The notes beneath the pieces are model-generated. The model was not told the DNA's origin and did not search any database. It saw only the letters and a list, made by a program, of their open reading frames with translations. 37,396 nucleotides of DNA from a virus, in IMG/VR virus record IMGVR_UViG_3300042868_001989, positions 1-37,396 of that record. One strand, 5' to 3'. The position numbers and the translations under genes were made by a program. Shown here piece by piece: positions 19,594 through 27,846 of this stretch (position 1 is its first letter; the number at the start of each line of letters is the position of its first letter).

Positions 19594-20403
19594 CTAGTAG
19601 TCGTATAGGAAATTGGCTAGGCTTCTTGTGCTTTGCCAATCTTTGTTCGGTGTGTAACATAGGCAGTCATCTATCATGATAGAACAATCAAAGCATGACT
19701 GGCACATGTTACAGTAGTACGGGTTGTCTGTCAAGTCTGTGGCAGACTCACAGTAGGGGCAGACTTCTAAGTCTACATCTACTGTGTAGTCCCACAGTTT
19801 GTCGTCATAGTTTGTAACTTTGACAGGCTCTAGGTAGGTAGTACGCTTATGACTTTGGTTACTCCACCAGATACCTTCATTGTCCCATGAACCAGCCGAC
19901 TCGTTGAGTAGATACATAGGGTGTTGCGCTGATGGGTCACATGTAATGATAGCAATCTTGCTACCTTTAGCCCAAGTCTCAGCCATTATCCATACGTTAT
20001 CGTCATCAAGTGCGGACACGCCACCAATTCTAGGTAGCGTATCCTCAGCAAAGACACGCGTATCACTACGCTTGTCGGACTTGCCGATACTTATGTCAAG
20101 CACACCATTGTGTGCTAGGTAAGTACGCTCATCATTACCAACCTTAAACGGGTGGCAATTCTGTTCGTTCTTAACACCATGTGTGGCGTATCGTGCGTGC
20201 CACATGGCGTAGCCGTCAGGGAATTGCTTGCGTAATTCCAAGAAGCGTGCAATAGATTTTTTAGCAGACATGCTACGCTCTGAGATAATCCTATCGCCAG
20301 CATGAATAGCAAAGCCAAATCCGTGTGGATTACTACACGCACCAGCGTGTAAGTCTGCTTTGTTTGGTGTGGAGTTTGGCTCGCACACTACAAGTAAGCA
20401 CAT
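19594..20403 (-). CDS. Class II glutamine amidotransferase with C-terminal zinc ribbon, 269 aa
   Basis: Begins Met-Cys, so Met removal gives the N-terminal Cys nucleophile of Ntn-type GATases. Further signature segments are GFGFAIH (28-34), MWHARYATHG (67-76), NCHPF and LAHNGVL (96-102), with SDTRVFAEDTL (113-123) in the expected acidic position. The C-terminus adds CPYC (215-218) and CNMC (231-234), a zinc ribbon. The enzyme releases ammonia from glutamine or acts as a related amidohydrolase. The next gene upstream is an amidoligase, and this pairing is known from other genomes. Likely partners. Confidence 0.85.
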   Translation of the reverse strand: MCLLVVCEPNSTPNKADLHAGACSNPHGFGFAIHAGDRIISERSMSAKKSIARFLELRKQFPDGYAMWHARYATHGVKNEQNCHPFKVGNDERTYLAHNGVLDISIGKSDKRSDTRVFAEDTLPRIGGVSALDDDNVWIMAETWAKGSKIAIITCDPSAQHPMYLLNESAGSWDNEGIWWSNQSHKRTTYLEPVKVTNYDDKLWDYTVDVDLEVCPYCESATDLTDNPYYCNMCQSCFDCSIMIDDCLCYTPNKDWQSTRSLANFLYDY

Positions 20404-20415
20404 AGTATCATCTCC

Positions 20416-21714
20416 CTAAGCGTTAGCAGTTATCTTGTTGTTAATGTCTACCGATTGTATCTTGTCCAACCTAGAGTATAGGTCGGGGTAGAGTCCATTG
20501 TTGGACACTACATAGTCAGCAAACCACTCCCAAGATAGTGCGCCAAGTTTGACATCATCTAGTCGTAGTTCCCTAGTGTATTCTACCATGGCTTGTGCTA
20601 AGTCTAGGGCACTTAACACGCCACTTGTTTTCATTGTGCCTCTAAAGAAGCGCAATTCTATTGTGTGTTTATTCTGTGTATTAACGGCTGAGTATCTCTC
20701 TGTGCTATGTCGGTTGGGATTGCCAACCTTGTGCTTGATAGAGAATACTGGGCGGTCATACTCATCAAAGGTGTACACATCATTAAACCTTGCAAAGCGC
20801 GACTTGCGCCCAGCAAACTTCATCATGTGTGGTGCGTTGTGGTACACAAAGGCTATGAACCTATGCAAGTGTGCGCCACTACTAAATCCGTCACGACTTA
20901 GGTGTATGTGCAGACCACAGGTATCCGTGTCCCACGACCTAGCGTCATAGTCCTTGCGTAGTGTCTCTATGGTATTCCATAGTAGCGTACTATTCTCGCG
21001 GTACTCTTGGTGTGTGTGTGGGTGAGTTACAATCTCGAACCCACTACTAATACTTCCGTCATGCTTTAGGTACGCAGTACCTAGCAAAGCACTAGAAGCA
21101 AATGATGAGGCAGAGTCTACGTTTGGCATCTCCGTCTCTAACTCGAAGCCGAGATACATGTTGCGCTTGCTAGTACCCTTAAAGATAGGTGCTGGCTTGC
21201 ATGAGTAGTCGTGGATAGTACCACTACTACGATAGGCACGGCAACACTTACCCTCTACACTATCGCTCTCACGACAATCGCAAGGGTAATCATTGTGGTA
21301 TGACTCGTCACAATCATCACAGTAATAGCAGTTATCAGAGTAGCAACCCTCACAGTATGGTGTATCACCAACATAGGTCGTGCTCTCTGATGATGACTCG
21401 CAACAATTCTCACAGTAGTAACTGTGGTTCTCGTAGCAATAGTCGCACCATGACTCGTTGTCTACTGTGTGCGTGTCATCATTACGAACCCCGTCATTAC
21501 AACGTTCGCATTGTGTCGCGCAATCCCAGCAGTACCACTCATCAGCAATAAACTCACGACCTCGACCACTAACAGCGTAGACACTCTCACACTCAAAGCA
21601 TAAGAACGCACACTCTTTACAGTAGGCATGTTCGTTGATGATTAACTCATCTCCGTCATCTATCGTGCTACTGCAATCCGTACACACTCTACCCTCTATC
21701 GTTACTTCGTCCAT
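20416..21714 (-). CDS. Amidoligase with N-terminal LIM-like cysteine array, 432 aa
   Basis: The C-terminal 250 residues match the glutamine-synthetase-fold amidoligase family (Amidoligase_2 type): LGFELETE (188-195), HDGSISSGFEIVTHP (218-232), CGLHIHLSR (266-274) and NTQNKHTIELRFFRGT (345-360). Such enzymes form amide bonds using ATP. Residues 10-170 hold about ten CxxC pairs, a LIM-like array likely used for protein or nucleic acid binding. ATG 21714 is chosen because AGAGGGGG lies nine bases upstream; a GTG at 21723 touches that site. It is driven by a consensus promoter 31 bases upstream. Confidence 0.85.
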   Translation of the reverse strand: MDEVTIEGRVCTDCSSTIDDGDELIINEHAYCKECAFLCFECESVYAVSGRGREFIADEWYCWDCATQCERCNDGVRNDDTHTVDNESWCDYCYENHSYYCENCCESSSESTTYVGDTPYCEGCYSDNCYYCDDCDESYHNDYPCDCRESDSVEGKCCRAYRSSGTIHDYSCKPAPIFKGTSKRNMYLGFELETEMPNVDSASSFASSALLGTAYLKHDGSISSGFEIVTHPHTHQEYRENSTLLWNTIETLRKDYDARSWDTDTCGLHIHLSRDGFSSGAHLHRFIAFVYHNAPHMMKFAGRKSRFARFNDVYTFDEYDRPVFSIKHKVGNPNRHSTERYSAVNTQNKHTIELRFFRGTMKTSGVLSALDLAQAMVEYTRELRLDDVKLGALSWEWFADYVVSNNGLYPDLYSRLDKIQSVDINNKITANA

Positions 21715-21744
21715 GTATCTCACCCCCTCTCGTTGTATAGTCGT

Positions 21745-21773: not shown

Positions 21774-21947
21774 TTCTTTCGCGTTGTCAATAATTGCGTC
21801 TGCAATCTTAGAGCGCAAGGTCTGAACCTCTAGCACTAGGCTAGGGAAGTCGTTGCGCTTATGGTTATCCTCTTGATGGCGTAGAGCCATGCGGATAACT
21901 TCGACCTCACGTTGAGTAAGGTCTAGCAGTAGGTTATCGTGCGTCAT
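21759..21947 (-). CDS. Small helical protein, 62 aa
   Basis: Mostly charged helix (TQREVEVIRMALRHQEDN; LEVQTLRSKIADAIIDNAKEL), coiled-coil-like. ATG overlaps the upstream membrane protein gene by 14 bases. Its coding end overlaps the amidoligase promoter. The function is not recognised. Confidence 0.6.
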   Translation of the reverse strand: MTHDNLLLDLTQREVEVIRMALRHQEDNHKRNDFPSLVLEVQTLRSKIADAIIDNAKELTKA

Positions 21948-22074
21948 AGTAGCCTTCGTATCTGCGCAATCTGCGCTCTAATACATAGACTCTACGGAAC
22001 GCAATCAGTAGTACCATGTTCACCGATAGCAAGGCTATCATTAGGGCGAACATGTCACTTGTAGATAGTGTCAT
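21934..22074 (-). CDS. Small membrane protein, 46 aa
   Basis: ATG 22074 follows AGAGAGG. Residues about 8-26 (MFALMIALLSVNMVLLIAF) form one membrane helix, followed by an Arg-rich tail (RRVYVLERRLRRYEGYY) that would lie in the cytoplasm. First gene after its own promoter. Function unknown; small early membrane proteins may alter the host envelope. Confidence 0.6.
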   Translation of the reverse strand: MTLSTSDMFALMIALLSVNMVLLIAFRRVYVLERRLRRYEGYYDAR

Positions 22075-22103: not shown

Positions 22104-22132
22104 ACCTTACCATAGGCTTGACGGCTTGTCAA
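22104..22132 (-). promoter_or_regulatory. Leftward promoter with overlapping inverted repeat
   Basis: TTGACA (22132-22127), 17-base spacer, TAAGGT (22109-22104). The -35 lies inside an inverted repeat CTTGAC (22117-22122) / GTCAAG (22128-22133), a likely operator related to the ACTTG-N-CAAGT sites at 22763 and 22862. Confidence 0.7.
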
Positions 22133-22137
22133 GTCGT

Positions 22138-22182
22138 GCCACGCTAGGTCGTGAACCTATGTAGCCTAGTGCTAGGCGTGGC
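22138..22182. other. Three-way-junction element, copy 1
   Basis: Outer stem GCCACG (22138-22143) / CGTGGC (22177-22182); inner hairpin TAGGT-loop-ACCTA (22145-22159); second hairpin TAGC-loop-GCTA (22162-22174). The second copy at 22721-22764 keeps the same layout with two compensatory base-pair changes in the outer stem. Located between a leftward gene stop and a leftward promoter. It could be an RNA element or a DNA cruciform. Confidence 0.6.
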
Positions 22183-22187
22183 TAATC

Positions 22188-22343
22188 TTATCGGGCTTGG
22201 AGACCCCGTAGGCGTGTCTGCTTAGTGGCAGGTTGCCATGACGTTTGGAGCAGGTTGGCGTGGAATAGTGCCTTAGCACTCTCTCGCGCTTCTAGCCAAT
22301 CGTAGGCTCGCGCCTCAGCAGTGAGTCGTTCTTGTGCGGTCAT
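22188..22343 (-). CDS. Small helical early protein, 51 aa
   Basis: ATG 22343 follows AGAGGT at good distance. The product is a charged helix (ERLTAEARAYDWLEARESAKALFHANLL) with a basic tail. The coding DNA is clearly more GC-rich than most of the window. Function unknown. The stop is followed directly by the three-way-junction element. Confidence 0.55.
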   Translation of the reverse strand: MTAQERLTAEARAYDWLEARESAKALFHANLLQTSWQPATKQTRLRGLQAR

Positions 22344-22368
22344 GTAGTACCTCTCTCATGGTCGTGTC

Positions 22369-22674
22369 TTAATCGTTCGCGTCTATGTGGACGCTTGGGA
22401 GCGTGGCGCGGAACTCGCGTTCGCGTTCGCTAAGTGCTAGGGCGCGGGCTAGGCGTTCCTGTTCATGCTCGCTAAGGGTTGGTAGTACACGCTCAACCTT
22501 TGGTCGGTTGGTCGTGACGGCATGGCGTGTGCGTGTACGCGTTAGGCGTACGGCTTTACCATGCTTAGTGTCGCTTAGTCGTGCCCCGATAGTGCCCAAG
22601 CGTCTATCAGACGCACGAACGCTAGGTGGCGTGACTACGATACTACCTAAACCCCCGTAAGGGTTGTAGGTCAA
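22369..22674 (-). CDS. Basic early protein, 101 aa, TTG start
   Basis: Starts at TTG 22674 with AAAGGA seven bases upstream. The middle is Arg/Lys-rich (KHGKAVRLTRTRTRHAV) and the C-terminus is a charged helix (LSEHEQERLARALALSERE). High GC compared with the rest. Probably nucleic-acid-binding. It is the promoter-proximal gene of the leftward operon. A plus-strand frame at 22385-22660 is its shadow. Confidence 0.6.
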   Translation of the reverse strand: MTYNPYGGLGSIVVTPPSVRASDRRLGTIGARLSDTKHGKAVRLTRTRTRHAVTTNRPKVERVLPTLSEHEQERLARALALSEREREFRATLPSVHIDAND

Positions 22675-22720
22675 GGTGCTATCCTTTCATGCTTAGAATA
22701 GGGTATCTCCCTAATCTAGT

Positions 22721-22764
22721 GTCGCGCTAGGTTGTGAACCTAGTATAGCCTATCGCTACGCGAC
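22721..22764. other. Three-way-junction element, copy 2
   Basis: Outer stem GTCGCG (22721-22726) / CGCGAC (22759-22764); inner hairpin CTAGGTTGTGAACCTAG (22727-22743); second hairpin TAGC-loop-GCTA (22746-22758). Relative to copy 1 the outer stem shows C-G to T-A and A-T to G-C changes that keep pairing. A -10 element (22742-22747) lies inside it on the minus strand. Confidence 0.6.
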
Positions 22765-22771
22765 TTGTCAA
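22742..22771 (-). promoter_or_regulatory. Leftward promoter with ACTTGTCAAGT operator
   Basis: TTGACA (22771-22766), 18-base spacer, TATACT (22747-22742). The -35 is embedded in the palindrome ACTTGTCAAGT (22763-22773). It would start transcription about 60 bases before the TTG of the first leftward gene. Confidence 0.75.
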
Positions 22772-22861
22772 GTGCTAGGGTGTCGGGCGTGTCGTGCTTA
22801 CCATGTCCGAGACACTGTTACTAGTAAGCGAGTCGAGACTCGCGACACCCTTGCACTATTG

Positions 22862-22872
22862 ACTTGTCAAGT
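22862..22872. promoter_or_regulatory. Second full ACTTGTCAAGT site, no promoter attached
   Basis: Identical 11-base palindrome to the one at 22763-22773. On the minus strand it contains TTGACA, but no good -10 lies at 16-18 bases. It may be an extra repressor site, comparable in idea to stoperators of mycobacteriophage L5. That parallel is inference. Confidence 0.5.
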
Positions 22873-22915
22873 TAGGGACGCTCCCGACTTGTCGGGGTTC
22901 TAACTTGTTGAGAGG

Positions 22916-22944
22916 ATAATACACCCTCTCGCCTTGCTGGTCAA
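22916..22944 (-). promoter_or_regulatory. Leftward promoter TTGACC-N17-TATTAT
   Basis: The -35 TTGACC (22944-22939) and -10 TATTAT (22921-22916) are 17 bases apart. A CAAGT half-site overlaps the -35. Strong match to the sigma70 consensus. Confidence 0.75.
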
Positions 22945-23017
22945 GTTACACACGACTTGTGGCGTGTCGTTCTTGTGAACCCTTTGGGGTTATTCCCCTA
23001 TCCGATTTACAAGGCAC

Positions 23018-23068: not shown

Positions 23069-23084
23069 TGTGATTTAGGTCACA
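23069..23084. promoter_or_regulatory. Crp/GlxR-type regulator binding site
   Basis: TGTGATTTAGGTCACA fits TGTGA-NN-TA-NN-TCACA at every specified base. This is the site recognised by Crp-family regulators such as GlxR in Actinobacteria. It overlaps another inverted repeat, ACCTAA/TTAGGT (23063-23080). It would link phage early transcription to host cAMP or carbon status if bound. Confidence 0.6.
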
Positions 23085-23147: not shown

Positions 23148-23230
23148 CTGAGAGTTTCCTGAGAGTTATCTGGGAAGGAATAACCCTGAGAGTTTCCTGA
23201 GAAAAAACTTAATGCCCCCTGAGAAATTAC
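23148..23230. repeat. Array of 11-bp repeats (CTGAGAGTTTC type), iteron-like
   Basis: Units beginning CTGAGA occur at 23148, 23159, 23186, 23197 and 23219, with a CTGGGA variant at 23170. Steps are 11, 11, 16, 11 and 22 bases, so nearly all are on an 11-base register. The 17-mer at 23148-23164 is repeated exactly at 23186-23202. AT-rich DNA follows. Candidate replication-initiator or regulator array. Confidence 0.6.
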
Positions 23231-23433
23231 TGTGTCGGGTAGATAGTCGGCTAATAGATAAACCTATAAATAGTTATGCAGACTTATAGATTTATCGACA
23301 ATTCACACACACTATAACCCTATACTAGAGAGTTAGACATTATGACCCCACATTGTTTAATTGCGCTGGCAGGGTCGGATATAGTATCCTCCCAAAAATT
23401 TCTGTTATATAATACTATAGCCCCCCTATATAT

Positions 23434-27300: not shown

Positions 27301-27846
27301 ATGACTACGATTATCGGTGTTCAGCACGAAGACAAGTGTGTAATTGTAGCAGACAGTCGAATCAACGCTTCTGGTAAAGTTTATACTCATCCCGACATGA
27401 CAAAGGCAGTTGAACGTGGAAGTTATATTATTAGTGGTGCTGGTAACTATCGTAGTTTGCAAGTGGTACTCCATGGGTGGACGCCTCCACTAGTTACAGT
27501 AAAGGCTAAAGCAAACTTATACGAGTTTGCAATTAATAAAGTAGTGCCATCGCTTAAGGCGGCACTTACTGAAGCAGGTGTAGACTTTAATAAAACATCA
27601 GATGATGATGATAATAAGTTTGAACTAAGTCTTTTGCTGGGAATTAACGGAACTATCTTTGAGATAGATTCTGATTTTTCAGTTGGAATGAACAGCACAG
27701 GATTTTATGGCATTGGTTCTGGTGGTGACTTTGCAGTTGGAGCACTACATGCAGGAACTACAATGCTAGATGCAATGAGAATTGCAGCAGTTAACAATAA
27801 CGAGACGGCTCCGCCGTTTCATATCTTTGAGCAATTTACTAAGTAG
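27301..27846 (+). CDS. Proteasome/HslV-like Ntn hydrolase, 181 aa
   Basis: MTTIIGVQHEDKCVIVADSR resembles the start of proteasome beta and HslV subunits. After Met removal Thr2 would be the nucleophile. D18 and K35 fall at the positions of the catalytic Asp17 and Lys33 (counting Thr as 1: 17 and 34). A GIGSGGDFAVGAL segment matches the later conserved serine/glycine motif. It has a strong AGGAGGGG ribosome site. Lying between portal and capsid genes, where phages usually encode the prohead protease, it is a good candidate for that role. Confidence 0.8.
   Translation: MTTIIGVQHEDKCVIVADSRINASGKVYTHPDMTKAVERGSYIISGAGNYRSLQVVLHGWTPPLVTVKAKANLYEFAINKVVPSLKAALTEAGVDFNKTSDDDDNKFELSLLLGINGTIFEIDSDFSVGMNSTGFYGIGSGGDFAVGALHAGTTMLDAMRIAAVNNNETAPPFHIFEQFTK

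Follow-up and report, generated by a model that had tools for sequence, protein, structure and literature searches.

tRNA-like RNA modules in the leftward operon of an uncultured phage and their possible role as mRNA punctuation

The leftward operon of an uncultured phage carries two copies of a folded element, and the question is what these copies are and what they might do. They lie in the window, by which we mean the whole stretch of DNA that was analysed (37,396 nucleotides, IMG/VR record IMGVR_UViG_3300042868_001989). The original prediction placed them at 22138-22182 (copy 1, here E1) and 22721-22764 (copy 2, here E2) and likened them, on the minus strand, to an acceptor stem that carries a D-like and a T-like arm, with the anticodon arm missing. 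Both placements agree with the window sequence, and the description is the right one (Table 1). The context was absent from that prediction: E1 is intercistronic, E2 belongs to the leader of the operon, where a promoter overlaps it, and at each of them a conserved hairpin precedes the ribosome binding site (RBS).

The phage is probably an actinophage, because the window encodes a WhiB gene and the DNA of its terminase region resembles that of Streptomyces phages. A search for the host via the terminase in GTDB genomes found nothing. Elsewhere in the leftward operon, an amidoligase-like protein adjoins a class-II glutamine amidotransferase-like protein (19594-21723), and the structural gene region encodes a proteasome-subunit-like protein (27301-27846; weak PF00227 match, E 0.0017).

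Layout and fold of the two elements

Table 1. Elements, hairpins, genes, and promoters around the two copies (positions in the window)
Feature	Position	Strand	Sequence, basis, or remark
E1, intercistronic tRNA-like module	22134..22182 incl. tail	-	Fold; matches to covariance models R1, R2, and R3; covariation
E1 sequence	22182-22138	-	GCCACGC / TAGC-ACTAG-GCTA / TAGG-TTCACGA-CCTA / GCGTGGC
E1 acceptor-like stem	22182-22176 with 22144-22138	-	7 bp
E1 D-like arm	22174-22171 with 22165-22162	-	
E1 T-like arm	22159-22156 with 22148-22145	-	Loop TTCACGA
E1 tail	22137-22134	-	ACGA
Hairpin directly behind E1	22117..22133	-	CTTGAC-AAGCC-GTCAAG; fold; in relatives ACACGC/GCGTGT and others
51-aa small gene upstream of E1	22188..22343	-	Stop ends 5 nt before E1
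46-aa small putative membrane protein gene downstream of E1	21934..22074	-	ATG 59 nt after E1 tail; L275 has an orthologue in this position, following an RF02926-like element
E2, leader tRNA-like module	22717..22764 incl. tail	-	Fold; R3; varied outer and D stems in relatives
E2 sequence	22764-22721	-	GTCGCG(T) / TAGC-GATAG-GCTA / CTAGG-TTCACAA-CCTAG / CGCGAC; T-like loop TTCACAA
E2 outer stem	22764-22759 with 22726-22721	-	6 bp plus possible wobble
E2 tail	22720-22717	-	ACTA
Hairpin directly behind E2	22694..22718	-	TAGGG-AGATA-CCCTA inside outer stem; fold; in relatives CCTAGCA/TGCTAGG, TAGGC/GCCTA
First gene of leftward operon	22369..22674	-	Start 42 nt after E2 tail
Promoter P1, inside E2	22742..22771	-	TTGACA-18-TATACT; sigma-70, near-perfect; predicted start within T-like loop
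Promoter P2	22916..22944	-	TTGACC-17-TATTAT; ~150 nt upstream of E2; conserved in relatives
Promoter P3	23018..23046	-	TTGACT-17-TAAAGT; upstream of P2; conserved in relatives

On the minus strand, the two copies share an acceptor-like stem, a D-like arm, a T-like arm with a 7-nt loop, and a tail of ACGA or ACTA. This three-way junction is the minimum-energy RNA fold of each copy (z = −3.24 for E1 and −4.32 for E2), and with the hairpin behind the module included the z scores are −3.57 and −4.90. The plus strand of both copies folds differently (z = −1.17 and −2.54). A common 6-bp outer stem had been predicted; this held only in part, as the stem of E1 is one pair longer and that of E2 may be extended by a wobble. 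The two compensatory changes that had been reported in the outer stem (C-G to T-A and A-T to G-C) are present. Two changed pairs in two copies are weak evidence by themselves, and it is the relatives that are decisive.

Relatives, covariation, and the selected strand

The original prediction had proposed a covariance-model search of related phages. In that search the paired positions proved to be conserved, and the module occurs in 150 loci of related viral contigs. Relatives were gathered from IMG/VR by terminase (80 loci) and by amidoligase (32 loci). MAFFT misplaced the 5' strand when it was given diverse copies, and therefore the models were first built from uniform subsets. R1 was built from ten copies and pairs only the outer stem and the T-like arm, with the D-like arm left unpaired; it gave 57 matches in the terminase set plus the window and 39 in the amidoligase set. 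R2, a second model that includes the D-like arm, gave 92 matches; among many further contigs that were fetched by pattern, it gave 147 matches in 100. These further contigs came from two pattern scans that selected for part of the T arm, so the counts are biased towards the T arm. R3 was built from the pattern-fetched contigs only and is independent of the window copies. With all filters off, R3 found exactly E1 (E 3.1e-10) and E2 (E 6.3e-4) in the window, and the next match had E 3.4. (The E-values of E1 with R1 and R2 were 1.1e-11 and 1.3e-14.)

Each of the 150 loci has one to five copies, and never on both strands. Some overlapping loci derive from one contig, and copies from related phages are not independent. 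The module lies between early genes of many uncultured phages, for which actinobacterial hosts are likely. There is also one copy in a GenBank phage record, OX376641.1 (R3, E 5.2e-10), and one pattern-fetched, tRNA-rich phage (L211) had no module match. By eye, we noticed in OX376641 a further divergent module-like structure between genes (L115:23040-23100; GCCACCG/CGGTGGC, tail ACTA, hairpin GGTAGG/CCTACC), which the models miss.

Selection on pairing, which had been inferred from the two copies, is supported by the covariation. In an alignment of 64 distinct rows (A6), 96.8% of cells pair and 14 of the 15 pairs are changed on both sides, with 180 double-change cells versus 42 in shuffles. 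In a second alignment, of 103 distinct rows (A7), 93.3% of cells pair, again 14 of 15 pairs are changed on both sides, and there are 264 double-change cells versus 62 in shuffles. For both alignments, none of 500 shuffles reached the observed covariation score, and sliding the partners collapsed the signal. A6 and A7 were fitted to the structure; R1, however, was built without pairing of the D-like arm, and in its alignment the pairs of that arm nevertheless change together (TAGC/GCTA, CCGA/TCGG, TAGT/ACTA, ATAC/GTAT, and CCCT/AGGG interchange).

The mismatches indicate which molecule is selected. With the first T-stem pair left out, G·U cells outnumber A·C cells on the gene strand (40 versus 4 in A7, and 10 versus 1 in A6), and read on the other strand the bias is reversed (C·A, G·U). 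Because of this excess, and because each of the 150 loci uses one strand only, the selected molecule is gene-strand RNA and not a DNA cruciform. (In most A7 rows the first modelled T-stem pair is mismatched, as C·A or A·A.) Both elements are thus real RNA structures that resemble a cut-down tRNA; this is shown for the structure and the strand, on comparative evidence only.

A rival explanation is that these are DNA elements (an operator, a cruciform, or a single-strand promoter) and that E2 is mainly a promoter with overlapping dyads. In support of this, the near-perfect sigma-70 promoter P1 keeps its −35 and −10 boxes in all 14 of 14 E2 variants, in which the outer and D stems vary with pairing retained. 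However, copy 1 types have no −10 box in register, and the usual site of the module is behind stop codons inside operons. The tolerance of G·U over A·C and the restriction to one strand per locus also count against this rival, as do P2 and P3, which would transcribe E2 whole (as predicted from the sequence; there are no RNA data). We consider it unlikely that these are DNA elements. Transcripts from P1 itself are predicted to start inside the T-like loop, and so they would be without the fold. The E2 stretch seems to double as a promoter and an RNA module.

There are several other repeats in this region. Upstream of the leftward leader promoters, at 23069-23084, is a perfect CRP/GlxR-like palindrome, TGTGACCTAAATCACA (minus strand), which is conserved with changes in 16 relatives; a similar palindrome lies directly 3' of the module in L146, L163, L170, and others. 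The palindrome ACTTGACAAGT / CTTGTCAAG is repeated within 22110-22950, with several copies centred on −35 boxes, and is a possible operator. The non-coding region at 23148-23231 contains tandem CTGAGAGTTTCCTGAGA-type repeats, with ctctcaggaaactctcag in relatives.

tRNA-like ends, position between genes, and possible processing

Across 161 distinct elements, the first base of the stem is G1 in 150, N-1 is A or C in 155, and the tail begins with A73 in 150 and has C74 in 156. As N-1 is A or C in 155 of the 161, it is usually unpaired with A73. The T-loop consensus is TTCRMGA, and YTCR with C56 is found in 111 of 112 elements. The distance from the T-loop to N73 is mostly 11-12 nt, versus 12 in tRNA. 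G1, the unpaired N-1, A73 C74, and the T-loop are features of a pre-tRNA end, even though the anticodon arm is absent. R3 also has a weak match (E 0.1) to an annotated tRNA-Lys, over its acceptor and T arm. On the other hand, half of the T-loops have C58 instead of A58, and because of this and the mismatch in the first T-stem pair, the tRNA elbow would be imperfect.

In terms of RNase P, the elements have structural features of a substrate: a G1-C72 acceptor-like stem, unpaired N-1 and N73, and a T arm stacked on the acceptor, although many elements have a mismatch at the first T-stem pair. What they lack is the 3' RCCA that pairs with RNase P RNA: A73 C74 is kept, but C75 is found in none of 152 correctly registered AC tails, so the tail is never ACC. 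(Five cases of C75 in a later table stem from misregistered tails.) The element in L275 does have ACCA. Phage tRNAs that occur in this group of loci, for example tRNA-Trp in L099, likewise have no encoded CCA, and T4 pre-tRNAs without CCA are also processed, though less well (PMC11143913).

The position of the module is fixed with respect to the genes on both sides. Among 78 distinct copies with enough flanking sequence, 64 are preceded by a stop codon at a distance of up to 150 nt, mostly 5-12 nt before G1. In 55 copies, a start with a Shine-Dalgarno-like sequence follows within 130 nt, and in all but four of these it is 36-62 nt after the tail. Both conditions are satisfied by 43 of the 78 copies, whereas 14% of random places satisfy them. 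Along the leftward operon of L057, L079, L062, and others, gene, module, hairpin, AGGAG, and gene recur in this order. A second hairpin is also a regular feature: a stem-loop with 5 bp or more, beginning no further than 12 nt from A73, lies between the module and the RBS in 121 of 146 distinct sequences (background in shuffles, 20%), and there are 82 different stems among the 121. These regularities of position and the second hairpin are shown, as are the tRNA-like features.

The best reading, in our view, is that the module is intercistronic, tRNA-like punctuation of the leftward phage mRNA. We give this a probability of roughly 0.5; transcription, cutting, the enzymes, and protection by the hairpin are all inferred, and there are no RNA or cleavage data. 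We propose that the leftward mRNA contains the module in its leader and again between two of its genes; in relatives the module occupies several successive gene gaps. The cut in front of G1 would be made by host RNase P, and the one behind A73 by host RNase Z or a different nuclease that acts on tRNA 3' ends. The polycistronic mRNA would thereby be divided into individual messages, as mitochondrial mRNA is divided at its tRNAs. For the downstream message, the hairpin behind the cut would form the new 5' end and shield the message against decay before the RBS, and the upstream message would retain a defined 3' end. Three points weigh against punctuation: P1 transcripts would be without the fold, the tRNA elbow is imperfect, and RNase Z does not need C74 to be conserved.

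The main rival is that the module is an uncleaved cis binding site that uses a tRNA shape. A phage or host protein, such as a tRNA-binding or tRNA-modifying enzyme or a ribosome-associated factor, would bind it and control the translation or stability of the next gene. This is possible. The fixed distance to the downstream start and the hairpin beside the Shine-Dalgarno sequence support it, and actinophages are known to carry repeats near start codons for which a role in translation has been proposed (PMC3203893; PMC7302621). Also, the conservation of ACNA could equally mark a protein-binding site. However, the spacing to the upstream stop is no looser than that to the start, which a purely translational site would not need, and the features that are kept are those of pre-tRNA ends.

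Another possibility is that the modules are transcription terminators or attenuators between genes. They do contain stable hairpins between genes, with two stem-loops in succession. But neither element is followed by a T-run, no terminator-like site was called there on the minus strand, and a simple terminator does not require a three-way junction, a T-loop, or an AC tail. This seems very unlikely.

Returning to punctuation, a bolder version would be that an actinophage lineage uses tRNA-shaped modules that are not tRNAs as serial punctuation of its mRNA. RNase P and RNase Z would excise each module, the avoidance of CCA would exclude it from the tRNA pool, and the hairpin would cap each message. 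In E2 the module would be fused to a promoter, so that the start points of primary and processed transcripts nearly coincide. We would bet slightly against this fuller version.

Comparison with known families and systems

The elements are not tRNA genes (ARAGORN called 0 genes and RF00005 had no match in the window). They are also not a tRNA-derived attachment site, as both strands of the acceptor stem co-vary and the copies differ within one genome.

The original prediction stated that no listed class explains the elements, which held in part. E1 and E2 have no match in Rfam, and RF02926 (DUF2693-FD) does not call them at any threshold. It does, however, have the same architecture: a 7-bp outer stem, a short D-like arm, an arm with a 7-nt loop, and no fourth arm. 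Its loop, AGCGAGA, is also among the module loops, together with AGCAAGA and TGCGAGA, and its members in Bacteroides lie close behind a gene and have an NCTA-type tail. On the relatives, RF02926 scored 27.3 bits in L079 and 29.3 bits in L275, below its gathering score of 44.5, whereas true members in Bacteroides loci, a positive control, scored 75-78 bits. The weak match in L275 is at the site orthologous to E1, upstream of the same membrane-protein gene. In contrast, R2 and R3 do not find the Bacteroides members, and neither the serial intercistronic arrangement nor the second hairpin was seen at the Bacteroides sites that we inspected. In our view the window elements are not members of RF02926 but a divergent variant that stands next to it within one broader kind; a shared origin is likely, though unproved. 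(Several MAGs from outside the Bacteroidales, such as L243-L251, have RF02926-like pattern matches, but inspection by eye showed no surrounding module, and these matches appear to be due to chance or to coding sequence.) An unexplained repeat pair thus becomes part of an RNA family that is large, co-varies strongly, and occurs in uncultured phages that are abundant, and punctuation offers a testable function for an Rfam class that is functionally unassigned.

YrlA RNAs have a tRNA-like fold without an anticodon arm, so the modules could instead be YrlA-like Y RNAs, or free-standing small RNAs that mimic tRNA and act in trans. The fold of the module does recall YrlA, and Rfam types RF02926 as a small RNA gene. 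Against this, the window, which was the only sequence searched for PF05731, has no TROVE/Ro60 gene. Also, the modules form part of leader or intercistronic RNA, where their distances are fixed, and one genome can carry several different ones. This explanation is unlikely.

Among actinophages, Cluster K mycobacteriophages and Cluster EF Microbacterium phages have start-associated repeats (SAS/ESAS), for which translational roles have been proposed (PMC3203893; PMC7302621). These also lie upstream of start codons, but they are linear, and their authors found little support for hairpins in ESAS. TM4 had no R1 or R3 match and only weak, partial alignments to R2. In the open-access literature that we searched, we found no description of phage punctuation of the type proposed here.

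The early polycistronic mRNA of phage T7 is divided at RNase III sites between genes. These sites are likewise RNA structures that divide an early mRNA; they differ in being long hairpins and not a tRNA-like three-way junction. In mitochondria, tRNA-shaped units lie between genes of one transcript and are cut at both ends by RNase P and RNase Z, which is what we propose for the phage. The phage modules differ in lacking the anticodon arm, in not being tRNAs, and in not belonging to an organelle, and their cutting has not been shown. If they are cut, then some phages may organise their mRNA by tRNA-like punctuation, which has until now been a mitochondrial hallmark, and the modules would be short natural substrates for probing the minimal needs of both enzymes. 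Finally, RNase P is known to cut tRNA-like structures, phage RNAs, and some mRNAs, including M3 RNA, C4 RNA, T4 gene 32 mRNA, and his operon mRNA (PMC11143913). Those, too, are tRNA-like structures in transcripts other than tRNA, but they are single cases, whereas the module described here is repeated, co-varies, and recurs at successive gene borders.
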